The notes beneath the pieces were generated by a model. It was not told the DNA's origin. It ran no database searches and saw only the letters and a list, made by a program, of their open reading frames with translations. The position numbers and the translations under genes are program-made. Shown here in pieces: positions 13,486 through 28,432 of a stretch of DNA of 64,000 bases. Every line of letters begins with the position of its first letter. Within the stretch, counting starts at the first letter, position 1. The DNA comes from Dictyoglomus sp. NZ13-RE01 (GTDB lineage Bacteria > Dictyoglomota > Dictyoglomia > Dictyoglomales > Dictyoglomaceae), in NCBI GenBank assembly GCA_002878375.1, contig NIRF01000007.1:1-64000 (forward strand), in the 5' to 3' direction.

Positions 13486-14361
13486 ATGAGCTTCTTTGTA
13501 GTAGATATTGGGGGAACAAATTTAAGAATTGCTGTTGTAGACTCTTCTGGGAATATTCTCAAAAAAGAAAGATTTAATACTCCCAAAGATTTTATTGAGA
13601 TAGGAAAAATCATTGAAGAAAGTTATAAAAATTTGAGTAAAGATTATTCTTTAAATGAAGTTATTGGGATTTCAGTAGCAGGAGCAGTATTTAAAGATGA
13701 GATCTGGCTTCCCAATATTTCAGAAGAAAAATTTCCTTTGATGTCTTTTCTTTATGAAAAATTAAGAATTCCTGTAAAAATATTAGACGATAGAGTATCA
13801 GGAGCTCTTGGAGAATTTTGGAGAGGAAAGGGGAGAAATAAAGATATACTTTTATATTTTATTATCGGAAAAGGAGTAGGATTAGGAATTATTATTAATG
13901 GAAAAACTTTACATGGGAAAAATGGAGTTCCAGGTTCTCTTGGGTGGATCCCAATTGGAAGAAGAAATTATTTTTCCTCAAAGGTTGGAACATTGGAATC
14001 TCAAATTTCAGGTCCTTCTATATTGAGGGAATATAACAGAATCTCAGGGAGAAATTTAGAAAAAACTGAGAAAGTATTTGAATTATTCGCAAGAGAAGAT
14101 AAATATGCAATAGAGGTTATCTCTAAAGTAGGGAAAATATTGGGGAAAACCCTTTCCTCTCTTTTAAATATTTTTGACCCTGATATTATTATTTTATCAG
14201 GAAGTATTGGATTAAAATGGGAAACTTTTAAACCTTTTGCTTCCCCTTTCCTAAATCTTTATCTTTCCCCCATTATTAAGAACAACTTTGAAATTACCAC
14301 ATCGGACTTAAGAGAAGACGCACAAATTTTGGGAGTAGCTTATAATCTTTTAGAAAAATAA
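13486..14361 (+). CDS. ROK-family sugar kinase (divergent)
   Basis: The ATG at 13486 is one base after the permease stop. An N-terminal ATP site (VVDIGGTNLRIAVVD, residues ~5-19) and a C-terminal nucleotide segment (IIILSGSIGLKWE) define a ROK/ASKHA kinase of 291 residues. The catalytic-region Asp is in LDDRVSGALGEFWRGKGR. The usual zinc motif (CxCGxxGCxE preceded by GEIGH) is absent; the equivalent stretch reads GVPGSLGWIPIGRRNYFSSKVGTLES. It probably phosphorylates the sugar imported by this operon; the divergence makes the exact substrate unsafe to name. Confidence 0.8.
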   Translation: MSFFVVDIGGTNLRIAVVDSSGNILKKERFNTPKDFIEIGKIIEESYKNLSKDYSLNEVIGISVAGAVFKDEIWLPNISEEKFPLMSFLYEKLRIPVKILDDRVSGALGEFWRGKGRNKDILLYFIIGKGVGLGIIINGKTLHGKNGVPGSLGWIPIGRRNYFSSKVGTLESQISGPSILREYNRISGRNLEKTEKVFELFAREDKYAIEVISKVGKILGKTLSSLLNIFDPDIIILSGSIGLKWETFKPFASPFLNLYLSPIIKNNFEITTSDLREDAQILGVAYNLLEK

Positions 14362-14441
14362 CAAAAATTTAAAGGGACAGTTTCTGACACTCTACCCCGT
14401 TAAAATAACCTTAGATAAACTTTTAAGGAGGGTTTATTTTT

Positions 14442-15401
14442 ATGAAAATAACAGATTATGTGAGTAAAATTAAGCTTGGAGAGGTCCAAGTTTGTGAAAA
14501 TGTTGCCATTTTCCCTCTCTTCTTAGAGATAGAAAATGTTCCCAATTTTATAACCTTGGAGTCCGCCTTAAAAAGCAAAAATTTTTTTGTGAAAGAAGTG
14601 AGTAATTCTGGCACAGTTCCTCATTTAAAGGTAATAAATAAACTGGACACACCAGTGTTTATCATGGACGGAGAAGAACTAAGAGGAGGCAAACAAAACA
14701 GAGTTCTTAACACTTCTATTTTGGTAAAGAAAAATTCAGAGGTAATAATTCCCGTAAGCTGTACAGAGAGAGGAAGATGGAGCTTTTCTTCAGATGTTTT
14801 TGAAGATCCAGAATATATTATTCCAGTAGATATTAGAAGGGGTAAAAACGAATCAGTTTTTAACTCTTTAATACATTATGGGGATTTCGAAAGTGATCAA
14901 CTATTTATCTGGAATGAGATTGATAAATATCACCAAAATTACAAGGTAGATTCTAAAACGGATGCTCTTAGAGATGTTCTAAAAAGGGAGGAGAAATTGC
15001 TTAAGGAAGGATTGAAGAATTTTCCCTATATAAAGGGGCAAAATGGTATTATGGTATTCACAAATGGTGAAATAGATGGGCTTGATATAGTATCTTTATC
15101 CTCTGCCTACGAATTACTTCATGAGAAAATTGTAAAAAGCTATCTTTTTAAAAACCATCCTTTAAAAAATAAATTTAAAGAAAACTATATGGAGAAAGCA
15201 CTATCCTTCTTTAATGAGATCAAAGAGGCAGAAGTTTTGAAATTCAAATCTGTAAGTTTGGGATGGGATATTCGATTTTCTGGAGAAAAATTTTTAGGCT
15301 CCATGTTAGTTTATAGAAATAAGCCTATTCATATGAACTTTTTTAAGAGGTATAATCAAAATAAAAAACCCTTTTCAGGGGAGGTGGTAATATTAGACTA
15401 A
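14442..15401 (+). CDS. ARPP-1/DUF6569-family protein next to cas6
   Basis: 319 residues matching the ARPP-1 (DUF6569) pattern as I remember it: a conserved core with NKLDTPVFIMDGEELRGGKQNR near 65-87 and PVSCTERGRW near 103-112. No catalytic function is established that I know of; the family was named for neighbouring ADP-ribosylglycohydrolase and rhodanese-phosphatase genes. AAGGAGGG precedes the ATG. The stop overlaps the proposed cas6 start, so it is probably transcribed and translated with the cas genes and may be an accessory component or a regulator. Confidence 0.82.
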   Translation: MKITDYVSKIKLGEVQVCENVAIFPLFLEIENVPNFITLESALKSKNFFVKEVSNSGTVPHLKVINKLDTPVFIMDGEELRGGKQNRVLNTSILVKKNSEVIIPVSCTERGRWSFSSDVFEDPEYIIPVDIRRGKNESVFNSLIHYGDFESDQLFIWNEIDKYHQNYKVDSKTDALRDVLKREEKLLKEGLKNFPYIKGQNGIMVFTNGEIDGLDIVSLSSAYELLHEKIVKSYLFKNHPLKNKFKENYMEKALSFFNEIKEAEVLKFKSVSLGWDIRFSGEKFLGSMLVYRNKPIHMNFFKRYNQNKKPFSGEVVILD

Positions 15402-16180
15402 AAGTATTATACGAAGGAGATATTCTCCCTTTGGATTACAGAAACTACTTTATGAAACTCATAAAAGATGCTCTTAGCAACACCGAGCTTGGGAAAGAAT
15501 ATTTGAAAGATTCATATCATTATGAAGACAAATCTAACAAAGCTCCAAAACCTTTTTGCTTTGCAGTAAGGTTTCAACATGATAAAGAAGAATTTAAAAA
15601 GGATAAAGAAATTTTTTACCTTAAAAGCCCTATCGAATTTTACGTATCCAGCATTGATACAGGCTTCTTAGTAGCTCTTTACAATGGATTAATAAGCAAA
15701 AGGCTATATCCCTTTAAAATTGGAGAGGGGACCATCTCAAAAATGAAAAGCATAATTCTTTTAAGAGAGAAGGAGATAAAAGAAAATAAAGCCATATTTA
15801 AGACGTTATCTCCAATTTTAATAGAAGATAAAAACGAAAATCCCCTGCTCCCTCTGGATAAAGATGGACATTTGCTGGAACTCACCAATGAAAATTTTGT
15901 TTATTTCCTAAGGGAATTTAACTATATAACGGATTCAATTCTCAAAGTGATAAGAGGTAGTGGCATTAAGGAAAGAATCGAGTTTAAACCTATAAAAATA
16001 AGAAAGGAAGTTGTTAAACATAGGGTAAGAGAAAAAAATACAGAGCCTAAAATTTATACCTACACATGCTTTTCTGGGATCTTTGAGCTCTCTGGAGATC
16101 CTGAGGATTTAAATTATGTTTACAAGCTTGGGATTGGTTTAAGAAGAGCACAGGGCTTTGGCATGGTGGAGGTGGTGTGA
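15392..16180 (+). CDS. cas6: CRISPR pre-crRNA endoribonuclease Cas6
   Basis: Cas6 cuts the repeat RNA to release crRNAs. The C-terminal glycine-rich loop is clear (GIGLRRAQGFGMVEVV). The expected N-terminus RLKVLYEGDILPLDYRNYF begins at an ATT codon (15392), 5 nt after GGGGAGGTGG, overlapping the previous stop by 10 bp. No ATG, GTG or TTG lies in that frame before the TTG at 15431, which would remove the first beta strand. With ATT the protein has 262 residues. The histidines of YHYEDKSNK are candidates for the active site. First of eight cas genes. Confidence 0.87.
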   Translation: MRLKVLYEGDILPLDYRNYFMKLIKDALSNTELGKEYLKDSYHYEDKSNKAPKPFCFAVRFQHDKEEFKKDKEIFYLKSPIEFYVSSIDTGFLVALYNGLISKRLYPFKIGEGTISKMKSIILLREKEIKENKAIFKTLSPILIEDKNENPLLPLDKDGHLLELTNENFVYFLREFNYITDSILKVIRGSGIKERIEFKPIKIRKEVVKHRVREKNTEPKIYTYTCFSGIFELSGDPEDLNYVYKLGIGLRRAQGFGMVEVV

Positions 16181-16182
16181 AA

Positions 16183-17826
16183 ATGGAAAGAGTTTACCTT
16201 TCGGATTGGCTCTTTAATGCAGGTATCATTGGATTCTTATCAATTCTTTTAGAGGGAAAAGAAGATATAAAAGAAGGAGAAAACATTCTTTCTAATGGAA
16301 AAACTATTTATATTGGGGAAAACTATATCCAGTTTGAGAGAGATATATTAGAAGGTTTCTCTGATAAATATTTTAATTCAGCTTATGAAAGATATAGAAG
16401 AACCGATAGGTTTATAGAATATTGCATGGAAATATTGGAAAAAATAAACAATAAAGAAATATCAGAAAAGGATATTGAAAAAATCTATAAGGACTTTAAA
16501 AAAAGATTAGATAGTTTTTCAAGGTTAAAGAACTTATTGGAGAAGGATTTACCAAGTTTTAGCCTCGAGGAAATTAAAAGAAACCCTGAACTATTCAGTG
16601 ACTATATATTAAAAATTTTAGATATTATTGAGAAAAACAAACAAACACTTATAGAAAATGACGTTAAAATATATTTAGGAAATATCTATGGGCAAAAAAA
16701 CTTTTTAAATAGAAGCGTTACTTCAGATTACAAAATTAAATTCAAAGAAGAGTTTGAAGATAATATAATTAAAGGGATTAATAAACTCGAAAAAAATACG
16801 TTATGCGTAAATTGTGGGGAAAGATATGCCAAAAAGAATATAAATTTTGACACAGGACTCTCCCCTTTCACTGGCGTTAATACTGATGCATTAAATTTCT
16901 TTTGGAATTTTAAAGCAAAACTTCCTCTCTGTGAAATATGCGAATTAATATATTTCTGCACTTTTAAAGGCTTTACTGAATCTGTAAGAGAAGACAAATA
17001 TTTCTTCGTAAATAGTGATACATCTGTTGTAGATCTTTATAAGAATAATTTATTATTGCAAGACCAACTTAAAAAGAATCTTGATGAGAACATTTTTATA
17101 GACTTTTTTAGTGAACTATTAATAAATGAGGAGCGTCAAAAAAGTAAACATGCCCTTCAAAGTATTGCTTTTATAGAAATCGATCTGACTAATAAGGAAT
17201 TACTTCCAAAGGTTTTCTCCTTCAATATAAGCAGGTCAAAAGCAGAATTTTTAAAACATCATTCTGAAAATACTTTTAAAATTATATCCAAAATAAGTTA
17301 TTCTATAAAAGATAAAAATAAAAGCATAGTCTTAGAATTATTAGAGAAGATCTTGGCAAACACTTTAAATTACGACTATCTAAACTTTTTAGAATATTTA
17401 TATCTGGAAAACTTAAAAGGTAATATGGAAATTAAGACATTTTATTATCCATACCATTTAAACATCTTAAACCTAATAATTAGTGAGTATTTAAGAAAAT
17501 TTAGAAAAAGAGAAAGGAGTGATAGAATGAGTTTAATAAATGAAGATCAAATTTGGTTTATGTTTAAAAAAGGAGAAGAAATTGCAAACAAACTTATAGA
17601 GGAAAAGGCTGAGAACAAAATTCCTTCCCTATCCTATAAACTTCTCTCCTATCTAAGAACAGAAGATATACATGGTTTTATGGATCACATTCTTAGAATT
17701 TATATTAGCTATGCCCTTGAGGTTCCAACCTTATTCGTAAAAGCTATTAGCGATAAAGAGCTATTTCTCTCGTATGGTTATAGTTTTGTAAATGGTATTT
17801 TATCTAAATATACATCTAAAGAATAA
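16183..17826 (+). CDS. cas8b1: type I-B Cascade large subunit Cas8b1/Cst1
   Basis: About 547 residues. This is the Tneap-type large subunit that helps recognise the protospacer-adjacent motif and start the R-loop. A four-cysteine zinc site is visible: CVNCGERY near 208 and CEICE near 247. The N-terminus (RVYLSDWLFNAGIIGFLSIL) is typical of Cst1. The ATG at 16183 follows GGAGGTGG by 7 nt; the GTG at 16177 is also in frame and overlaps the cas6 stop. Confidence 0.87.
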   Translation: MERVYLSDWLFNAGIIGFLSILLEGKEDIKEGENILSNGKTIYIGENYIQFERDILEGFSDKYFNSAYERYRRTDRFIEYCMEILEKINNKEISEKDIEKIYKDFKKRLDSFSRLKNLLEKDLPSFSLEEIKRNPELFSDYILKILDIIEKNKQTLIENDVKIYLGNIYGQKNFLNRSVTSDYKIKFKEEFEDNIIKGINKLEKNTLCVNCGERYAKKNINFDTGLSPFTGVNTDALNFFWNFKAKLPLCEICELIYFCTFKGFTESVREDKYFFVNSDTSVVDLYKNNLLLQDQLKKNLDENIFIDFFSELLINEERQKSKHALQSIAFIEIDLTNKELLPKVFSFNISRSKAEFLKHHSENTFKIISKISYSIKDKNKSIVLELLEKILANTLNYDYLNFLEYLYLENLKGNMEIKTFYYPYHLNILNLIISEYLRKFRKRERSDRMSLINEDQIWFMFKKGEEIANKLIEEKAENKIPSLSYKLLSYLRTEDIHGFMDHILRIYISYALEVPTLFVKAISDKELFLSYGYSFVNGILSKYTSKE

Positions 17827-17846
17827 TTAAGAAGGAGGTAAGTGAA

Positions 17847-18740
17847 ATGAAAAAGGGAGGTTTAACTTTAAGCATAGTTTTTGAAGCTATGAGTTTAAAT
17901 TATGGAGAGGGTGTGGGAAACATATCAGAGCTTAAAAAACTAACCAGGGAAGGATATACATTAACTTATATGTCTCGCCAAGCCTTGAGATACGAGTTAT
18001 TCAAAACTCTAAAAAATATGTTTGGGGTAGAAGATGCTCCCTTAACTAAGGAGAAGGAAGTAATTCAATTCAAAGAAGAAGCAAATATTAAAGACTATGA
18101 AGAGCTTGATCTTTTTGGGTATATGAAGACAATAAGGGGACAAAAGGCTATAACCCGCTCAGCAGTAGTAAGATTTTCTCCTGCTATTTCTTTGGAGCCT
18201 TATTTAAATGATTTAGAGTTTGGAACTAATAAAAACTTTGCGGATAGGTTAAAATCTGATCCTAATCCGTTCCAATTTGAACAGCATTATTCCTTATATA
18301 CATATACTGTAACTATAGATTTAGATAGATTAGGAAAAGATGAGAATGAAAATATTGAGTTAGACAAAGAGACAAGAATTAAAAGAGTACAAAATGTGTT
18401 GGAAGCATTAAAGGTTATGAATAGAGAAATAAAAGGACGTATTGAAAATCTAAATCCTATTTTTGTAATCGGTGGTATATATCCAATAAAAAACCCATTT
18501 TTCTTAAATAGGATTAAAGTATCTTTAGATAGTTCTACAAGAAAATTTAAAATAAATACTGAATTAATAAAAAGTACTCTAAATATCAAGATTAATGATT
18601 CCTTGGTTGAAGATTATACTCATATTGGATTACTAAAGGGGTATTGGGGAAATGAGAATGAGTTTGAAAATGCAAAAGACATAAATGATTTATTTGAAGA
18701 ATTAAAAAAAGGGGTAAAAGCTTTCTATGAAAGTGCTTAA
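17847..18740 (+). CDS. cas7: type I-B Cascade backbone Cas7 (Cst2/DevR)
   Basis: 297 residues. Cas7 polymerises along the crRNA guide. Family features: GLTLSIVFEAMSLNYGEGVGN at the N-terminus, a central segment RGQKAITRSAVVRFSPAISLEP and the FEQHYSLYTYTVTIDLDRLG strand near 145-165. AGGAGGTAAGTGAA precedes the ATG, the strongest ribosome binding site in the operon, fitting a subunit needed in several copies. Its end overlaps cas5 by 14 bp. Confidence 0.88.
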   Translation: MKKGGLTLSIVFEAMSLNYGEGVGNISELKKLTREGYTLTYMSRQALRYELFKTLKNMFGVEDAPLTKEKEVIQFKEEANIKDYEELDLFGYMKTIRGQKAITRSAVVRFSPAISLEPYLNDLEFGTNKNFADRLKSDPNPFQFEQHYSLYTYTVTIDLDRLGKDENENIELDKETRIKRVQNVLEALKVMNREIKGRIENLNPIFVIGGIYPIKNPFFLNRIKVSLDSSTRKFKINTELIKSTLNIKINDSLVEDYTHIGLLKGYWGNENEFENAKDINDLFEELKKGVKAFYESA

Positions 18741-19419
18741 ATTAAAAGTATATCAACAGTTTGCTAATTATAGAAAGCCATTTTCTTACAATTTTATTGA
18801 CACCTACCCTTTGCCTACTTATTCACATATAAGAGGCTGGATACATAGAGTTTTACAGGCTAAAGAATATATACCTATCAGTATATCTATACAAGGTACA
18901 TACGAAAACATAGTATACGATTTACAAACCTTTTATAAATTTGATAGAAAAAGAAATACAGAAGAGGAAATTTTTCTACCAGAGTACAATAAGAGTTTAG
19001 TTAGATCTCCATTCTATGTGGCAAATTTACAGGATGTTTATCTTACTATACATATAAACATGCCTTTTGAATTTCTCAGTAAAATTGAGACAAATATTTA
19101 TGATGTTTTTCCTTCTATAGGAAGACATGAGGATATAGTAAGAATAGATGAAATAAAATTCATAGAAGTAGAAAAGAAAAATATAGGATTCGATTTTTAT
19201 AAAATTAAATATCCTATTTATCTTAAGAAAGAGACTGCAGAAAAATATAAATTAATTGGTATAAATTATAGATTACCTTTTAAATATAAGATTGAGCAAG
19301 ATTTAAGGTATTTTGAGAAAATAGATGTAGTTTATGTAGAGGAAGGAACATTATTTGAAGAAGCCATTTTGGATTCTGAGGGTGACTTAGTAGAACTAGT
19401 GGGTGATTTCAATGGATGA
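18727..19419 (+). CDS. cas5: type I-B Cascade subunit Cas5 (Cas5t)
   Basis: 230 residues. Cas5 caps the 5' handle of the crRNA. The N-terminal RAMP fold is recognised in LKLKVYQQFANYRKPFS followed by TYPLPTYSHIRGWIHRVL, the typical Cas5 glycine/proline segment. It overlaps both cas7 (14 bp) and cas3, indicating translational coupling. Confidence 0.86.
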   Translation: MKVLKLKVYQQFANYRKPFSYNFIDTYPLPTYSHIRGWIHRVLQAKEYIPISISIQGTYENIVYDLQTFYKFDRKRNTEEEIFLPEYNKSLVRSPFYVANLQDVYLTIHINMPFEFLSKIETNIYDVFPSIGRHEDIVRIDEIKFIEVEKKNIGFDFYKIKYPIYLKKETAEKYKLIGINYRLPFKYKIEQDLRYFEKIDVVYVEEGTLFEEAILDSEGDLVELVGDFNG

Positions 19420-21679
19420 GCATCATATTATTTACGCAAAAACATATAGGGAAAATGGACAGATTTCTTTTGAGACCCTTGAGGAACATACTCTTGCTCT
19501 TTTGAAAAATCTTGAATTACTAAAGAAAAGTTATTATGAAGAAATAAATGAAATCCTTAGAAGAGAGAATTATGATCCTGATAAATTCTGGGAAATATTG
19601 AGAATTGCAGTAGTATATCATGATTTAGGTAAGGTGAACTCACTATTTCAGAATAAGATCAGAGATCTTTTAGGAAAAGAAAGGTTGAAAACTAAGTTTT
19701 CCCAGGAAATACCCCATAATTTCCTATCACCTGCTTTAATCCCCAAGAATGTTTTTTCGGGGATAAATAATTTTGATATAAACGATATTTTTATGCTTAT
19801 ATATGCCGTAATGTATCACCATTACAGAGATTTTGATTTTGACGAAGAATATTTTAGGAATTACTTAAACGAAGAAGTACTAAACAAAACAGAATATCTT
19901 TCTTGGGTAAAAAATTATGATAAAAACTTTGGTAATGGGGATAGTTTAGGATGTAATTATTTTGGTTTAATTAAGGATTATGGTAAAATTACAAACTTAG
20001 AAAACAAACTAACATTTATCATGCTTAAAGGATTTTTATACAGATTAGACCATTCCTCCTCTGCCCATGTAGAAATAGAAAGGGAAAGAATTAAAAATTG
20101 CGAGAACGAATTAATATCATATCTAAAAAGCAAATTTGGCTTTACTGGATTTAAACCTTTCCAAAAACAGGCAATTTATTTAAGAGATAAAAATGTACTT
20201 TTAGTAGCTCCCACTGGAAGTGGTAAAACAGAATTTGCAATTAATTGGATAGGAGATAGAAAGGCAATTTATACACTTCCTTTAAGAGTTTCTGTCAATG
20301 CAATGTATGAACGCCTTAAGAATATATTTGGAAAAGACAAAATTGGTCTTTTACATGCTGATTGTGCATACTACGGGCTCGAAGAAATTAGAAAATCTGA
20401 AAATGAATTAAAAGAACACTTATATAATATAGCTTCCTCAAGACAACTATCATATCCTATAACGGTTAGTACTGCAGATCAGATTTTTATTTCATTCTTT
20501 TACTTTCCAGGTTATGAGAAAATATTTTCCATTCTTCCATATACTAAAGTAGTAGTAGATGAACCGCAAGCATACACTTCCGAATCTTTAGCTGTTATTG
20601 TTGAAGGATTAAAGAAGATAAATAATATAGGGGGAAGATTTTGTTTAATGAGTGCTACCTTTTATCCAATCTTAAAGAAAGAATTAGAAGATATAGCTAC
20701 AATAATAGAATATACTGAAAATCAAAATACTAGACATATTTTAAGATATTATCCTGATAAAGATTTAGAAGATGTTGCTGATGAAATAATTGAAAATTAT
20801 AAAAAAGGAAAGAAGATACTAATTATAACAAATACTGTAAAAAAGGCACAAAATATATATAAATTTTTAATATCTAAAACAAAAGAGCATGAAGGGATAA
20901 AACTTTTACATTCAAGATTTACTTGGAAAGATAGAACTGAAAAAGAAGAACAAATTTTCTTAGATGAAAAAAAGCAAAGTCCATGTATTTGGGTATCTAC
21001 ACAAATAATAGAAGCATCTTTAGATATAGACTTTGATATATTGTTCTCAGAATTAGCTCCCATAGATACCTTAATACAAAGAATGGGTAGGGTGTATAGG
21101 AAGAGACAATATTTAGAAGACACTCCAAATATAATAATTGTAGGAAATTCAGGTAATCCATCAGGGAAAATTCATGTTTATGATTCCTTATTGATTGACT
21201 CTACTTATAATCTTCTTTATGATTTCAATAACAAATTATTAGATGAAAAGACTAAGAAATCTTTAGTGGAGAAAATATATTCTCTTGATCTATTAAAAAA
21301 CACAAAGTATTATAAAAAATTTCAGGAATATCAAAGAATTCTTAAATTAGGATATAAGGCTGATAATAAAATAGAGGCTGAAAAAATTTTTAGAAAAATT
21401 TCAAGTATAGATGCTATACCCATTGAAATTTATGAAAAGAACAAGGAAAAAATAATAGAAATAGGAGACAAAATCTACTCTAAGGATGCATTTAAAAAAT
21501 TAGAAGGTATTAAGGAATTAAAAAACTTTACTATAAATATTCCTTTAGAAATAAAAACTTACTCCCAAAATTTAATTTCATTAGAAAGAGAATTAGATTT
21601 AAGAGTTTTTTTAATTAATTTAGAATATAATAAAGAATTAGGGCTTATTCCTGATAAATCCACAGAGAATATAATTTAG
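19412..21679 (+). CDS. cas3: CRISPR nuclease-helicase Cas3 (HD + SF2 helicase)
   Basis: The N-terminal HD nuclease has VYHDLGK near residue 70. Next is an SF2 helicase: Walker A APTGSGKTEF near 265, Walker B DEPQ near 383, SAT (LMSATFYP) near 415 and motif VI QRMGRVYRK near 555. Cas3 unwinds and degrades the DNA strand displaced by Cascade. The ATG at 19412 is chosen; an in-frame GTG three codons earlier is possible. The stop TAG (21677-21679) is in the same frame as cas4. Confidence 0.9.
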   Translation: MDEHHIIYAKTYRENGQISFETLEEHTLALLKNLELLKKSYYEEINEILRRENYDPDKFWEILRIAVVYHDLGKVNSLFQNKIRDLLGKERLKTKFSQEIPHNFLSPALIPKNVFSGINNFDINDIFMLIYAVMYHHYRDFDFDEEYFRNYLNEEVLNKTEYLSWVKNYDKNFGNGDSLGCNYFGLIKDYGKITNLENKLTFIMLKGFLYRLDHSSSAHVEIERERIKNCENELISYLKSKFGFTGFKPFQKQAIYLRDKNVLLVAPTGSGKTEFAINWIGDRKAIYTLPLRVSVNAMYERLKNIFGKDKIGLLHADCAYYGLEEIRKSENELKEHLYNIASSRQLSYPITVSTADQIFISFFYFPGYEKIFSILPYTKVVVDEPQAYTSESLAVIVEGLKKINNIGGRFCLMSATFYPILKKELEDIATIIEYTENQNTRHILRYYPDKDLEDVADEIIENYKKGKKILIITNTVKKAQNIYKFLISKTKEHEGIKLLHSRFTWKDRTEKEEQIFLDEKKQSPCIWVSTQIIEASLDIDFDILFSELAPIDTLIQRMGRVYRKRQYLEDTPNIIIVGNSGNPSGKIHVYDSLLIDSTYNLLYDFNNKLLDEKTKKSLVEKIYSLDLLKNTKYYKKFQEYQRILKLGYKADNKIEAEKIFRKISSIDAIPIEIYEKNKEKIIEIGDKIYSKDAFKKLEGIKELKNFTINIPLEIKTYSQNLISLERELDLRVFLINLEYNKELGLIPDKSTENII

Positions 21680-21703
21680 CAAAAAGAAAGGGGAGTAAAA
21701 AAC

Positions 21704-22213
21704 ATAGAATTAAGTCAAGAGTTAAGAATTACAGGAGTAAAAATAAATTACCTATATGTATGTGAGAGGAAACTTTGGCTCTTCGACAGAGGTGTGTGCA
21801 TGGAGCATACCTCCGATAAAGTATTGCTGGGTAAATTAATTGATGAATTTAGCTATCCCAAAGAAGAAAAAAGGAGAATATTAATAGACGATCTTATATG
21901 TATAGACATATTAGATGAAGAAGAAATAAGGGAGATAAAGTACAGTGATAGCTTAGAGGAGCCAAATAGAATGCAGATTCTTTACTATTTATATTACTTG
22001 AAAAAGCTTGGAATATATAAAAAGGGAATATTAAATTATCCGAAACAAAGAAAACGTGAGATAGTAGAGCTTACCCCTGAAAAGGAAAGGGAGGTGGAGG
22101 ATGCTATTAAAAGAGTAGAGGAAGTAATAAAGAGAGAAACTCCACCTCCTGTGGAAAAGAAAAAATATTGTAGAAAATGCGCATATTTTGAATTTTGCTT
22201 TGTAAGTGAATAA
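21704..22213 (+). CDS. cas4: CRISPR adaptation exonuclease Cas4
   Basis: Cas4 trims pre-spacers and selects the PAM with Cas1-Cas2. Four Fe-S cysteines are present if translation starts at ATA 21704: C20 (YVCERKLWLF) and C156, C159, C165 (YCRKCAYFEFC). RecB-nuclease residues E77/K79 (EIK) and Q91 with nearby Tyr (QILYY) are present. Upstream of the GTG at 21794 there is no ATG, GTG or TTG after the cas3 stop, yet the essential first Cys lies there. AAAGGGGAG is 8 nt before the ATA. Length 169, normal for the family. Confidence 0.86.
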   Translation: MELSQELRITGVKINYLYVCERKLWLFDRGVCMEHTSDKVLLGKLIDEFSYPKEEKRRILIDDLICIDILDEEEIREIKYSDSLEEPNRMQILYYLYYLKKLGIYKKGILNYPKQRKREIVELTPEKEREVEDAIKRVEEVIKRETPPPVEKKKYCRKCAYFEFCFVSE

Positions 22214-22219
22214 TCAATT

Positions 22220-23200
22220 ATGCAAAAAGATTTGTACATTTTCTCGAGTGGGACCATAAAGCGTAAAGAAAATACCATATACTTTGAGCCTAAAGAGGGG
22301 GAAAAGAAATATTTCCCCATTGAGAATATTAGCGCTATCCATCTATTCGGAGAAGTCGACATAAATACAAAAGCTTTAAACTTTTTTGCTCAAAACAATA
22401 TCATTATCCATGTTTACAACTACTACGGATATTACTCAGGATCCTATATTCCTCGAGAGAAAAATGTTTCTGGAGAGCTATTAGTTAAACAAGTTGAACA
22501 TTATTTAAATAAAGAAGAGAGAATGTATCTTGCATACTCCTTTGTTGAGGGAGCCCTTTTCCATATGCAAAGAAATCTTAGAGAGTATGAGAATACTGAA
22601 GAATTTATTTTCAAAATTAAACAGGAGCTTGAAAAAGCTGGAACTTGTAACGACATAAATGAGCTTATGGGATGTGAAGGAAGAGCAAGAGATGCCTACT
22701 ATGATGCCTTTAACGTAATTCTAAAAGGGAAATTTCTTTTTGAAAAAAGAGAAAAAAGACCACCTAAAAATCCAATAAATGCTCTCATTTCTTTTGGGAA
22801 TTCTCTGACTTATTCCGCAGTACTTTCAGAAATATACAAGACCCAACTTAATCCAACTATTAGTTATCTCCATGAGCCAAGAGAGAGGAGATTCTCTCTT
22901 AGCTTGGATATATCAGAAATATTTAAACCATTAATTACAGATACTATAATTTTTAAATTAATAAACAATAACATGCTTAAAGATGAAGACTTTGATCAGG
23001 ATGTTAATTATTGCTACCTCAGTGAATCTGGAAGAAAGAAATTTATAAAGGAATTCGAAACAAAAATGGATACAACAATAAAACATAGAAAATTAGGGAG
23101 GAACGTCTCATACAGATTCCTAATAAGGCTTGAATGTTACAAACTTATAAAACATCTTCTTAAAGATGAAATCTATAAACCGCTAAAGGCTTGGTGGTAA
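22220..23200 (+). CDS. cas1: CRISPR integrase Cas1
   Basis: 326 residues. Cas1 inserts new spacers at the leader end of the array. The metal-binding triad is visible: E153 (GCEGRARDAYY), H218 (YLHEPRERRFSL) and D230 (LDISEIFKP). The N-terminal beta domain starts DLYIFSSGTIKRKENTIYF. It lies 6 bp after cas4 and ends in an overlapping or near-contiguous junction with cas2. Confidence 0.95.
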   Translation: MQKDLYIFSSGTIKRKENTIYFEPKEGEKKYFPIENISAIHLFGEVDINTKALNFFAQNNIIIHVYNYYGYYSGSYIPREKNVSGELLVKQVEHYLNKEERMYLAYSFVEGALFHMQRNLREYENTEEFIFKIKQELEKAGTCNDINELMGCEGRARDAYYDAFNVILKGKFLFEKREKRPPKNPINALISFGNSLTYSAVLSEIYKTQLNPTISYLHEPRERRFSLSLDISEIFKPLITDTIIFKLINNNMLKDEDFDQDVNYCYLSESGRKKFIKEFETKMDTTIKHRKLGRNVSYRFLIRLECYKLIKHLLKDEIYKPLKAWW

Positions 23201-23202
23201 GA

Positions 23203-23466
23203 ATGTTCGTTATCATCACTTATGATATAAATGAAGAAAGAGTAAATAAAGTTAGAAAAATTCTAAAAAGATATTTTGTATGGGTACAAAATTCGGTTTT
23301 CGAGGGAGAGATATCCATTGGGAAATTAGAAAAATGCAAAAAAGAATTACAACTTGTAATTGTTCCAGAGGAAGACTCAATCTATTTCTATATCATTGAG
23401 AATAAAAATAATTATGCAAAGTCTATCTTAGGTCTCGAGAAAAATATGGATTCCTATATTTATTGA
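23203..23466 (+). CDS. cas2: CRISPR adaptation protein Cas2
   Basis: 87 residues from the ATG at 23203 (MFVIITYDINEERVNK); a longer in-frame TTG start at 23191 would overlap cas1 and is less likely given the family's usual N-terminus. Ferredoxin-like fold with VIITYDI first strand and WVQNSVFEGE. It is the structural core of the Cas1-Cas2 integrase and the last gene before the leader. Confidence 0.93.
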   Translation: MFVIITYDINEERVNKVRKILKRYFVWVQNSVFEGEISIGKLEKCKKELQLVIVPEEDSIYFYIIENKNNYAKSILGLEKNMDSYIY

Positions 23467-23679: not shown

Positions 23680-26600
23680 GTTTGATCTGAACAATGTGGG
23701 ATTTAAACAATAATACTCCAGAGCACGAGAAATAAAAGCCTGAAAGTTTGATCTGAACAATGTGGGATTTAAACGCTATTTTATAAGTCGCAACTCTAAA
23801 ATTTGTAGTAGAGGTTTGATCTGAACAATGTGGGATTTAAACAGTCAAAACTAAATATTTTCTCTAAAATTTCATCATGTTTGATCTGAACAATGTGGGA
23901 TTTAAACCTATCCAGATAGGTTTTAGAGCGACTAAAGAAGCATGTTTGATCTGAACAATGTGGGATTTAAACGATATTGGTGCAAATTCTTATCCAATTG
24001 TCTTTGGCGTTTGATCTGAACAATGTGGGATTTAAACGTCAATTATAATTTTTACTTTGTTTTTTACATCTTTCAAGTTTGATCTGAACAATGTGGGATT
24101 TAAACTATGTAGCTGTGATTAAGTCTGTAGTTGTTAAGCAAGGTTTGATCTGAACAATGTGGGATTTAAACACCCTTCAATTACATTTTTAAAACTAAAT
24201 ATTAAATCGTTTGATCTGAACAATGTGGGATTTAAACGAAGCAGTAAGATTTGAAGTAGAGATAGTACCGAGAGGTTTGATCTGAACAATGTGGGATTTA
24301 AACCTTTGAAGCCATATTTTTTTTTAGCCCCCTTTCGTAAGTTTGATCTGAACAATGTGGGATTTAAACATCAAGAGAGCTATCATGAAGAAGTGAAAGA
24401 ACCTACGTTTGATCTGAACAATGTGGGATTTAAACAAATTCCGATTGAATGGGACGCACAAAACAACAAAGTTTGATCTGAACAATGTGGGATTTAAACT
24501 TTTAGTGGCGGGCTTGCGAAATTCTTAATTTTCTAGTTTGATCTGAACAATGTGGGATTTAAACGCAATAACTTATTGACTATGTTGTCAACCTCTACAA
24601 GTTTGATCTGAACAATGTGGGATTTAAACTTCTCCGTATGATGTATATAGGGCATATCTTCTTCATGTTTGATCTGAACAATGTGGGATTTAAACTTTGG
24701 TGTAGTTTGTTTATTTCTGGTATAACTGCAAGGTTTGATCTGAACAATGTGGGATTTAAACTCTTCCGAAACCGAGGTAATACAAGCGGGGACAAAAGGT
24801 TTGATCTGAACAATGTGGGATTTAAACAAGAAAATAGTTGACAAAGTTTTTTAAACGTGATAAGTTTGATCTGAACAATGTGGGATTTAAACTCTAAATG
24901 GGATAACGGGATTTCTTTTGTAGACAGTGGTTTGATCTGAACAATGTGGGATTTAAACCAGCAAATAAGTGGGGCTACTAACTCTTCTGCTCTTGTTTGA
25001 TCTGAACAATGTGGGATTTAAACGTAGAGAGAGAGATATGGGACAGGTGGTATCAGAAGTGTTTGATCTGAACAATGTGGGATTTAAACGATCTCTCTTG
25101 CTACTGAGAAAGAGATATCTCCTCGCGTTTGATCTGAACAATGTGGGATTTAAACGCAGAAGAAGGTACCAAACCCTCGAGTAAAAATCCAAAGTTTGAT
25201 CTGAACAATGTGGGATTTAAACAGAAATATAGAGAGGGTAAGAGTAATAGCAACTGCAGTTTGATCTGAACAATGTGGGATTTAAACTAAAAATTAAACG
25301 GGAGGTGTTAGTATGGATATTAGAAAGTTTGATCTGAACAATGTGGGATTTAAACAATTGAGAAGTTTAAGGAAAAGCACAGAATTGAGAAAGTTTGATC
25401 TGAACAATGTGGGATTTAAACCTTGGCATCTCCTGCTCTTGCTATTCCTGCTTGCCAAGTTTGATCTGAACAATGTGGGATTTAAACTTCTCTGGAGTTA
25501 TTTCTCCTTGAGGAGCTATAGTTGTTTGATCTGAACAATGTGGGATTTAAACGGCATAGTATATGTAACTGTATCTTGATATACTCTTGTTTGATCTGAA
25601 CAATGTGGGATTTAAACGATCTTGCTAAGGAGGTGTTTAAAGGTGAAGGTCAAAGGTTTGATCTGAACAATGTGGGATTTAAACAGAGAGAGACGCTGCT
25701 GGAATTTGCGCAGGATATACGAGTTTGATCTGAACAATGTGGGATTTAAACAAAGAAAACGTTTTTCTGTGTCCCATGTGCACGCAATGTTTGATCTGAA
25801 CAATGTGGGATTTAAACAATTTCTCTATTGCCTGCAGGCAAATCTGATAAAGTTTGATCTGAACAATGTGGGATTTAAACAAAGATGGAGTTATGGATTT
25901 AAGTTCTAATGCCTTTGTTTGATCTGAACAATGTGGGATTTAAACCTTTTTGCTTGGGTAGTTGCTAAAAGAACAGAAGGAGAGTTTGATCTGAACAATG
26001 TGGGATTTAAACTGGAATTACAGACTCCAGAGGAGACGCAGCAATGCTGTTTGATCTGAACAATGTGGGATTTAAACAAGCATAATGCAGAGGTGGGAGG
26101 AGTACCAAACTCATGTTTGATCTGAACAATGTGGGATTTAAACTTTTATCAGATTTGCCCGCAGGCAATAGAGAAATTTGTTTGATCTGAACAATGTGGG
26201 ATTTAAACAAGAAAATAGTTGACAAAGTTTTTTAAACGTGATAAGTTTGATCTGAACAATGTGGGATTTAAACTTTCCCTTCTCTGAATACAAGCCAAGA
26301 ATTCCAAGCGTTTGATCTGAACAATGTGGGATTTAAACTTTTTTACGTTTAGAATGTAATTGTCAGTGTCAAATGTTTGATCTGAACAATGTGGGATTTA
26401 AACAAAGGGTGTTTCTGGGACTACGTAGAGGGTGAGGAAAGTTTGATCTGAACAATGTGGGATTTAAACCGCAGGAGATTTTTCATGTTGGATACCCAAG
26501 ACCGAGGTTTGATCTGAACAATGTGGGATTTAAACAAAACAAAACAAGGATATAATACACAGTCACAGACGGTTTGATCTGAACAATGTGGGATTTAAAC

Positions 26601-28432
26601 TCGATTAGTATTGAAAACTATCTGAAAGGAGAAAAGGGTTTGATCTGAACAATGTGGGATTTAAACGTTGTAAAGGAGAATGAGGATATGTATATAAATG
26701 TATAGTTTGATCTGAACAATGTGGGATTTAAACAGGTAGAAAGGGAGACATTAATAGAGTTTGCGGAAGGTTTGATCTGAACAATGTGGGATTTAAACAC
26801 GGATGTTCTTGTCTGCATACTGGACAAATAAATGTTTGATCTGAACAATGTGGGATTTAAACATCTTTGTAGCTATCTACGTATTAGTTAGAATGGAGAG
26901 TTTGATCTGAACAATGTGGGATTTAAACAGTTATCACATCAAAATAAAATGACTAAATCGTGAAATTTTCTACCCTTATAGGCGAGCTACAAGGCACGTG
27001 CCTAATCTAATTTTAAAACGTTCTAATCTTAAAAGTGAAACTTTTAAATTCTTCGAAATTTTGAGGAAAAATGAGAAAACTTTGTTTGATCTGAACAATG
27101 TGGGATTTAAACTCATAAAAAACCACTTATCTACTTCTGTTACCCTATGTTTGATCTGAACAATGTGGGATTTAAACCCGGTAGATCTCTGCACTTTTGC
27201 ATTGTGTAATGCAGTGTTTGATCTGAACAATGTGGGATTTAAACTGGTTCACAGAATAATACTTTTCCTTTATACATCTTGTTTGATCTGAACAATGTGG
27301 GATTTAAACTGCTATAGGTAGTATGTAGTTTATTAATGCTTGAGTAGTTTGATCTGAACAATGTGGGATTTAAACGTAGAAACTTGCGCTAAAATAGCAC
27401 CACGAAGGTCGCTCGTTTGATCTGAACAATGTGGGATTTAAACGTTGAAGGAGCAAGCATTATACAAAAAGAAGAGAAAGTTTGATCTGAACAATGTGGG
27501 ATTTAAACTTCGCACTTCCCTTTATTCCCGTCCATAACCAGTTCGCGTTTGATCTGAACAATGTGGGATTTAAACTCGTTTAGTATTGAAAACTATCTGA
27601 AAGGAGAAAAGGTTTGATCTGAACAATGTGGGATTTAAACTTAGATCTTTTATTTCTTCACCTTCGACATAGCTCGTTTGATCTGAACAATGTGGGATTT
27701 AAACCCTTACAACGGGGTCTGTTATTTCAAATATTTCGTCAGTTTGATCTGAACAATGTGGGATTTAAACTATAGCCTAAGTGGTTCCCATAGGTAGAAT
27801 CTATTCTCGTTTGATCTGAACAATGTGGGATTTAAACAACAGTTATACCTTCTACAGCTAATATCTTCGCTACGTGTTTGATCTGAACAATGTGGGATTT
27901 AAACTTCTAACACAATAATCCACTCTATCTTGTCTAAAGAGTTTGATCTGAACAATGTGGGATTTAAACCTTCAGCTGTCTTAGCTGTCCCACTTGTTTT
28001 TGAAGTGTTTGATCTGAACAATGTGGGATTTAAACTTTGAGAGTAGGGGGCGGGCTATCTTGCCAGCCACTGGTTTGATCTGAACAATGTGGGATTTAAA
28101 CCCTTCAATAGGGGCTTCATTTACTATCTTTCTCCAGTTTGATCTGAACAATGTGGGATTTAAACAATTTTTAAAATTTTCAGTCCTTAATAAAAACTAT
28201 AGTATTGTTTGATCTGAACAATGTGGGATTTAAACCACTATGAAGAAAAACTTCTGGAAGAAAGAAGTGGCAGTTTGATCTGAACAATGTGGGATTTAAA
28301 CGAAGATTTAATAAAAAAGATAGATGAAAGAGGTTATGAGTTTGATCTGAACAATGTGGGATTTAAACAATCTTGAATGTAGGTTTAAATTCAAAGAATT
28401 CCTGTTTGATCTGAACAATGTGGGATTTAAAT
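23680..28432 (+). CRISPR. CRISPR array: 71 repeats of 29 bp, spacers 34-39 nt
   Basis: The repeat begins GTTTGATCTGAACA and ends GTGGGATTTAAAC; the first copy is at 23680-23708 and copies recur every 64-68 bp. By hand count there are 50 repeats from 23680 to 26928, a 155-nt gap, then 21 repeats from 27084 to 28432. The last copy ends in T instead of C, as expected at the end away from the leader. The likely crRNA 5' handle is ATTTAAAC. Repeats are otherwise near-perfectly uniform, so the array is probably active. Notable spacers: 24828-24863 equals 26209-26244; 26601-26637 nearly equals 27576-27611; 25818-25851 is the reverse complement of 26144-26179 with one mismatch. Confidence 0.98.
26929..27083. 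other. 155-nt insert in the CRISPR array, possible internal leader
   Basis: The stretch between repeats at 26900-26928 and 27084-27112 is about four times a normal spacer and holds no recognisable repeat. It is AT-rich next to the following repeat and contains a palindrome GGCACGTGCC (26993-27002) and a hairpin TTAAAAGT-GAA-ACTTTTAA (27029-27047). Its first ~36 nt could be an ordinary spacer. It may be the leader of a second array now fused to the first, or a remnant of an insertion. It shows no clear likeness to the main leader by eye. Confidence 0.6.

Follow-up and report, generated by a model that had tools for sequence, protein, structure and literature searches.

ARPP-1, first gene of a type I-B CRISPR operon in Dictyoglomus, as a probable member of a phylum-wide, WYL-controlled defence regulon

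What does a gene of the orphan ARPP-1 family (DUF6569) do when it stands first in a CRISPR-Cas operon and runs directly into cas6? The question is raised by a 64,000-nucleotide stretch of DNA from Dictyoglomus sp. NZ13-RE01 (the window; its genome is G000 in our comparisons), and it touches a broader one: how bacteria coordinate several defence systems is a largely open question, and the WYL regulators of defence described in the available parts of the literature act on their own island. The original prediction held that ARPP-1 could be an accessory sensor or a control gene of the type I-B system beside it. By examining the junction of the two genes, the distribution of the family across bacteria, and a promoter element that recurs upstream of defence operons among the Dictyoglomota, we arrive at a different reading, which we consider probable: ARPP-1 is the promoter-proximal gene of a type I-B operon and belongs, as a regular member, to a phylum-wide, WYL-controlled defence regulon, in which it serves as an accessory effector.

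The window contains a type I-B system in which cas8b1, cas7b, cas5b, cas3, cas1b and cas6 form one operon accompanied by an array (Table 1). Membership of ARPP-1 in its family rests on a match of 281.7 bits (cut-off 27) between residues 10-301 of 319 and positions 2-297 of the 297-position PF20208 profile, that is, over the whole domain and above the curated cut-off. In an alignment of 30 sequences the protein keeps the near-invariant residues E78, Q85, R87, C107, E109, R112, W113, Q153 and W157; the family's conserved Cys and Gln are thus both present, Q85 being invariant and C107 at least 90% conserved.

Table 1. Features of the ARPP-1/type I-B locus in the window
Feature	Position	Strand	Basis or remark
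Predicted operator GGGACAGTTTCTGACA, half-sites around a 7-nt spacer	14374..14389	+	Shared with cas, BREX and ARPP-1 promoters of the phylum
-10 element TAAAAT, 11 nt past the operator, no consensus -35	14401..14406	+	Fixed 11-12 nt to TANNNT in most sites
Shine-Dalgarno AAGGAGGG of ARPP-1	14425..14432	+	Sequence
ARPP-1 (PF20208 / DUF6569), 319 aa	14442..15401	+	ORF list and Pfam profile match
Ribosome-binding site GGGGAGGTGG of cas6, purine-rich, inside ARPP-1	15378..15387	+	Sequence
cas6, ATT start (most likely), 10-nt overlap with ARPP-1	15392..16180	+	TIGR01877, 112.8 bits; N-terminus kept in three homologues
cas8b1/cst1	16177..17826	+	TIGR01908, 340 bits
cas7 (Cst2/DevR)	17847..18740	+	TIGR02585
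cas5b	18727..19419	+	TIGR01895
cas3	19403..21679	+	TIGR01587, TIGR01596
cas4	21794..22213	+	PF01930
cas1b	22220..23200	+	TIGR03641
cas2	23191..23466	+	TIGR01573
CRISPR array, 70 exact copies of a 29-nt repeat	23680..28368	+	Repeat count

How closely the two genes are joined depends on where cas6 begins. The mechanical open reading frame starts at the first ATG/GTG/TTG, TTG 15431, and would put 29 nt between the two genes. That start loses the segment RLKVLYEGDILP, which an in-frame extension to ATT 15392 restores and which is conserved in cas6 of three relatives (G001, G003 and G005); because the starts of those homologues (TTG, TTG and ATG) also align exactly with it, ATT 15392 is most likely the true start, as judged from the sequence. 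With this start the overlap of 10 bp originally proposed holds (15392-15401, no intergenic space), as does the placing of the cas6 ribosome-binding site within ARPP-1. The coupling also extends beyond the genus: in G001, which belongs to a second genus of the same family, the end of ARPP-1 and the start of cas6 on contig C68 overlap by 11 nt. A separate promoter or terminator at the junction was looked for and none was found; a promoter-like scan gave fewer matches than shuffled sequences (37 versus 50), and the sole terminator-like match nearby (15416-15428) lies within the cas6 coding sequence. By every sequence criterion applied, co-transcription of ARPP-1 with the type I-B operon is supported.

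Some features of the operon and its array merit description in their own right. Within the array, the spacers at 24828 and 26209 are identical, those at 26601 and 27576 nearly so, and those at 25818 and 26144 almost reverse complements of each other, a pattern that looks as if the same targets had been sampled again, once on the opposite strand. In two relatives (L017, on G001 C68, and L069, on G005 C13) a cas6 that is 71-75% identical to that of the window is followed by a different cas8; to judge by these sequences, the effector module has been exchanged behind a conserved cas6.

The neighbourhood survey limits what the junction can mean. In a domain-wide sample of 290 genomes (E 0.001), ARPP-1 was found in 29 and cas6 in 75, and only three genomes, all Dictyoglomota, have both genes in a stretch of 25 kb or less: G000 and G001, where they are adjacent, and G003, where some 22 kb separates them. 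Outside the phylum ARPP-1 occurs in 24 genomes, and none has an adjacent or nearby (≤25 kb) cas6; six of them carry the gene, never on the ARPP-1 contig, and tblastn with the cas proteins of the window found no cas gene in 26 ARPP-1 regions covering 23 of the 24. Within the phylum five of seven genomes have ARPP-1, which overlaps cas6 in two (G000 and G001) and lies elsewhere in G003, G004 and G005. In three Dictyoglomota genomes a conserved protein of about 170 aa is encoded near ARPP-1 where the latter is not beside cas genes (L013 13229-13735, L015 12507-13043, L016 11496-12020).

Since adjacency in the 290 genomes is confined to Dictyoglomota, the association with type I-B systems that was originally predicted is not general. 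A core type I-B cas gene would be conserved with the other I-B genes across taxa, and ARPP-1, adjacent in 2 of 290 genomes, is not one. What survives of the functional link is co-transcription, recurrence in a second genus, and a common promoter (described below), but not a general association with cas6/cas8b1. A dedicated accessory subunit or sensor of the I-B system, which the overlaps of 10-11 nt in two genera might suggest, is very improbable: ARPP-1 is unlinked to cas6 in three Dictyoglomota genomes and in all 24 genomes outside the phylum, G006 has a cas operon but lacks ARPP-1, G004 has ARPP-1 but lacks cas8b1, in G001 the same ARPP-1-cas6 pair precedes a different cas8, and nothing indicates a Cascade subunit. 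Nor does the protein look like a control gene, as only the ARPP-1 domain is matched; the evidence instead places it under common control with cas, probably exerted by a WYL regulator. ARPP-1 would accordingly be neither a part of Cascade nor its regulator.

The evidence for common control is a promoter element. An insertion-sequence end between ROK and ARPP-1 was considered and rejected: the only other genomic copy of GACAGTTTCTGACAC precedes not a transposon but a PAPS-reductase-like gene (BrxP), and this recurrence led to the operator. Comparison of the regions upstream of ARPP-1 and cas6 in related genomes gave the element (A/G)GGNC-N6-TGNC(C/A)-N11/12-TANNNT, and the window, scanned with as many as 2 mismatches allowed, contains a single operator of the GGGACAGTTTCTGACA type. 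The strict pattern, RGGNCN6TGNCMN11TANNNT, has 37 matches in the seven Dictyoglomota genomes against 8 for the reversed-pattern control; in 53 other genomes the counts are 120 and 219, respectively. Of the 37, by our reading, 24 closely precede a gene or gene start on their own strand, and 13 are inside open reading frames or without a target. A second form without the -10 box, RGGNCN5TTGACC, gave 18 matches against 9.

Because the pattern was drawn up by eye from seven upstream sequences, of which four belong to ARPP-1, part of the motif fit is by construction, and only leave-out tests are free of circularity. The strict pattern is present in four of the six cas6 operons of the phylum outside those seven sites (P ~6e-13, from the genome-wide rate), two of the six (G000 C2 and G006 C11) having been seen before the final pattern was written; among the four never seen (G001 C75, G003 169387, G004 and G005 C11) two have strict matches (P ~1e-6). 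A weight matrix trained only on eight cas and BREX sites places its best matches upstream of ARPP-1 at -68, -67, -62 and -66 in four genomes, with scores of 27.9, 12.5, 15.2 and 24.4, equalled or exceeded at 3, 16, 10 and 5 of 439,898 background positions that still include several true cas sites and three ARPP-1 sites. The highest of these scores, 27.9, belongs to the ARPP-1 operator of the window; the low score in G003 reflects a spacer one base longer.

The operator precedes all nine testable cas6 operons, seven with strict sites (G000 C2, G000 C7, G001 C75, G003 81543 and 169387, G005 C13, G006 C11) and two with relaxed ones (G005 C11, with TATAAG at -10, and G004, with GTGAC in place of RGGNC). 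Two of the nine are reached through one first gene: ARPP-1 in G000 C7 and, in the second cas operon of the same genome (G000 C2; L085 1566-2105), a gene for a 178-aa secreted protein, which occupies the slot held by ARPP-1 in the window. Before ARPP-1 itself the operator lies at 62-68 nt in four of four testable Dictyoglomota genomes, wherever the gene sits (strict in G000, G004 and G005; with a 12-nt spacer in G003); in G001 the contig ends inside ARPP-1, which leaves that gene and a tenth cas6 operon (G001 C68) outside these counts. In G000 C8 and G006 C42 the operator precedes brxP, followed by brxC, pglZ and brxL, and PADLOC identifies all four in both genomes as BREX genes, the brxL of G006 being cut by the contig end. 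Thus the same operator-promoter, as defined by sequence, stands before ARPP-1, cas6-led and BREX operons, linked or not, and since ARPP-1 carries it alone in three genomes, the shared regulation would be independent of linkage.

The physical linkage could nevertheless be passive, ARPP-1 and the cas operon having been joined by recombination at their common operator, so that cas gained only transcription and the linkage itself is functionless. We regard this as doubtful, although it is compatible with membership in a regulon. In its favour, the junction frames differ (10 versus 11 nt), the 178-aa gene stands between operator and cas6 in the second operon of G000, and the gene trees show no single transferred unit; against it, there are two independent junctions with ribosome-binding sites inside ARPP-1, and ARPP-1 has the same operator on its own in three genomes. 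A mobile ARPP-1-cas6 unit was considered separately and rejected, as the four-taxon trees of the two proteins agree (support 89 and 100); in a larger ARPP-1 tree support among the Dictyoglomota is weak.

WYL control of single defence loci is already known; CapW, for example, is a WYL regulator of CBASS. Among the Dictyoglomota, six of seven genomes encode an HTH-WYL-WCX protein family (327-339 aa), the seventh genome being 72% complete; in the seven proteins scanned WYL and WCX always score above the cut-off, and HTH_11 above it in four and below it in three. In G005 and G006 the order is WYL gene, operator, cas6, with the end of the WYL gene directly before the operator; in G000, G001 and G004 (three of the six genomes) the WYL gene does not adjoin cas6, the one of G000 lying at C2:144401. 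The WYL gene before operator and cas6 in G003 (L160, 168843) is frameshifted near the HTH, and a second, intact copy lies elsewhere. Outside the phylum, G052 of the control run has five pattern matches versus one, of which one lies between cas6 and a WYL gene 55-63% identical to those of Dictyoglomota. Two other matches in G052 are intergenic, before uncharacterised genes (L176, L178), and two are inside genes. Among plasmid relatives of the WYL protein, two of three records opened (of 547) precede a type I cas6 operon, directly or with one small gene between (Cylindrospermopsis and Nostoc), and the relative on Synechocystis pSYSM does not; the operator was not found in the WYL-cas6 intervals of the two cyanobacterial plasmids. 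By analogy, the regulator of the shared element is probably this WYL protein, which is predicted to bind it.

The remaining targets widen the picture. Four genomes have the operator before a gene for a 164-aa secreted protein; another secreted protein is encoded behind it in G003 and G004, and also in G005, where its gene comes second. Further targets include genes for DUF7424 lipoproteins, an NlpC/P60 protein and a clostripain-family protein, together with a few unidentified or degraded genes. As roughly one in two targeted sites stands before a secreted-protein, surface or unidentified gene without a known defence role, and 13 of 37 matches are off target, the regulon may be wider and concern stress or the surface. 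Alternatively, the element could define a class of general surface or stress promoters read by a different regulator or sigma factor and not by the WYL protein, with cas, BREX and ARPP-1 included only incidentally and ARPP-1 serving a housekeeping or envelope function. The target list, the distance of the WYL gene from cas in half of the genomes that have it, and N-terminal signal-like extensions of ARPP-1 in L007, L008 and others are consistent with such a class; we consider it unlikely, because neither BREX operon, nor any testable cas6 operon, lacks the element, the WYL-operator-cas6 trio recurs in G052, and the geometry of half-sites, N7 and -10 fits characterised WYL activators.

Returning to a WYL-controlled defence regulon, we hypothesize that the HTH-WYL-WCX regulator, whose gene adjoins cas6 in several relatives, occupies the operator over the -35 region and activates transcription, as DriD and PafBC do, once its WYL domain has bound a nucleic-acid infection signal, probably single-stranded DNA. 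In the available parts of the respective papers, DriD activates with ssDNA from a site GAC-N7-GTC that spans a poor -35 at fixed distance from the -10 (PMC12340889), and PafBC has a -26 motif and an ssDNA trigger (PMC11804915), SiwR being cited likewise (PMC10693628). Activation by a nucleic-acid signal is preferred because the operator layout equals that of DriD and PafBC, the comparison being one of promoter geometry only. As BrxR and Sll7009, by the part of PMC9122601 consulted, are WYL regulators that repress their own locus, repression may apply here instead of the activation that the promoter geometry suggests. Cas proteins, BREX and ARPP-1 would then be made together, and ARPP-1 would act as a separate accessory enzyme, with the conserved cluster of Cys, Gln and Arg as its working residues and ribosyl or ADP-ribosyl groups as a possible substrate. 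We put forward only tentatively the fuller picture of an SOS-like anti-virus response, in which one ssDNA-sensing WYL activator would switch on dispersed CRISPR-Cas, BREX and ARPP-1, the last as a new effector acting on ribosylated molecules.

This chemistry is suggested because ARPP has been placed in ADP-ribosylglycohydrolase-centred conflict systems, with ribosyl/ADP-ribosyl chemistry proposed (Iyer et al. 2022, PMC9503650, consulted in part), and because remote members have defence-type neighbours. A scan of 20 proteins, covering close same-strand neighbours of remote members and the HIRAN fusion itself, found ADP-ribosylglycohydrolase, the HIRAN fusion, a kinase-UvrD fusion (twice) and a NERD-helicase; the rest matched unrelated families or none. 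In L047 (5960-9504) and L056 (6634-10114), from two families, ARPP-1 overlaps the gene for the protein-kinase/UvrD-helicase fusion, and PADLOC labels the fusions GajB-like and PD-T4-6-like; the two genes possibly form an undescribed defence pair. Two-gene ARPP-WYL and ARPP-HIRAN neighbourhoods are already listed in the available part of PMC9503650; one of the 34 remote ARPP-1 loci searched has a WYL gene, about 7 kb off, and none has one directly beside ARPP-1. An AlphaFold model of ARPP-1 (only 4 sequences, mean pLDDT 71.5) had no fold match in the PDB at E ≤0.001, and a sequence search returned no solved structural relative. A search of phage and plasmid records returned no phage record and two plasmid records, matched in part.

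In the literature searched we found no description of a WYL regulon that covers both CRISPR and BREX, or of ARPP-1 in a CRISPR regulon; DUF6569 was not found in the papers searched, and the matches listed for ARPP-1 or DUF6569 were, by title, on other subjects such as ARPP-16/19. Coordinated defence as such is not new, since a preprint, to judge by its title, concerns it under one regulatory system in pseudomonads (PMC11888443). A dispersed, motif-defined regulon uniting adaptive (CRISPR) and innate (BREX) immunity would allow defence genes to be predicted from the promoter alone, and the orphan ARPP-1 family gains a testable immune context, with a concrete operator and a candidate regulator.

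Compared with known systems, the operon and array of the window are a complete standard type I-B system (cas6-cas8b1-cas7-cas5-cas3-cas4-cas1-cas2), with the difference that ARPP-1 is added as first gene. With the ADP-ribosylglycohydrolase-centred conflict systems of PMC9503650, as far as the available part describes them, ARPP-1 shares the domain, the conserved Cys and Gln, and recurring defence-type neighbours; unlike them, the ten window genes scanned (13486-23463) include no ADP-ribosylglycohydrolase or rhodanese-phosphatase, and the link to CRISPR and BREX through a common operator, seen here, does not appear in that part. The candidate regulator has the HTH-WYL-WCX architecture of DriD and PafBC, and its predicted operator likewise lies across a poor -35 without TTGACA, at a near-fixed distance from the -10. 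The half-sites have the 7-nt spacing of DriD, whereas their letters differ (GGNC/GNCC here, CGAC/GTCG in DriD), and, as a further difference, the targets identified here include anti-virus operons and, so far, no DNA repair genes. Finally, the candidate resembles other WYL regulators of defence: BrxR, which controls BREX, CapW, which controls CBASS, and Sll7009, which controls a CRISPR locus; BrxR and Sll7009 act on their own locus, whereas the sites described here are scattered over the genome and stand before several systems.
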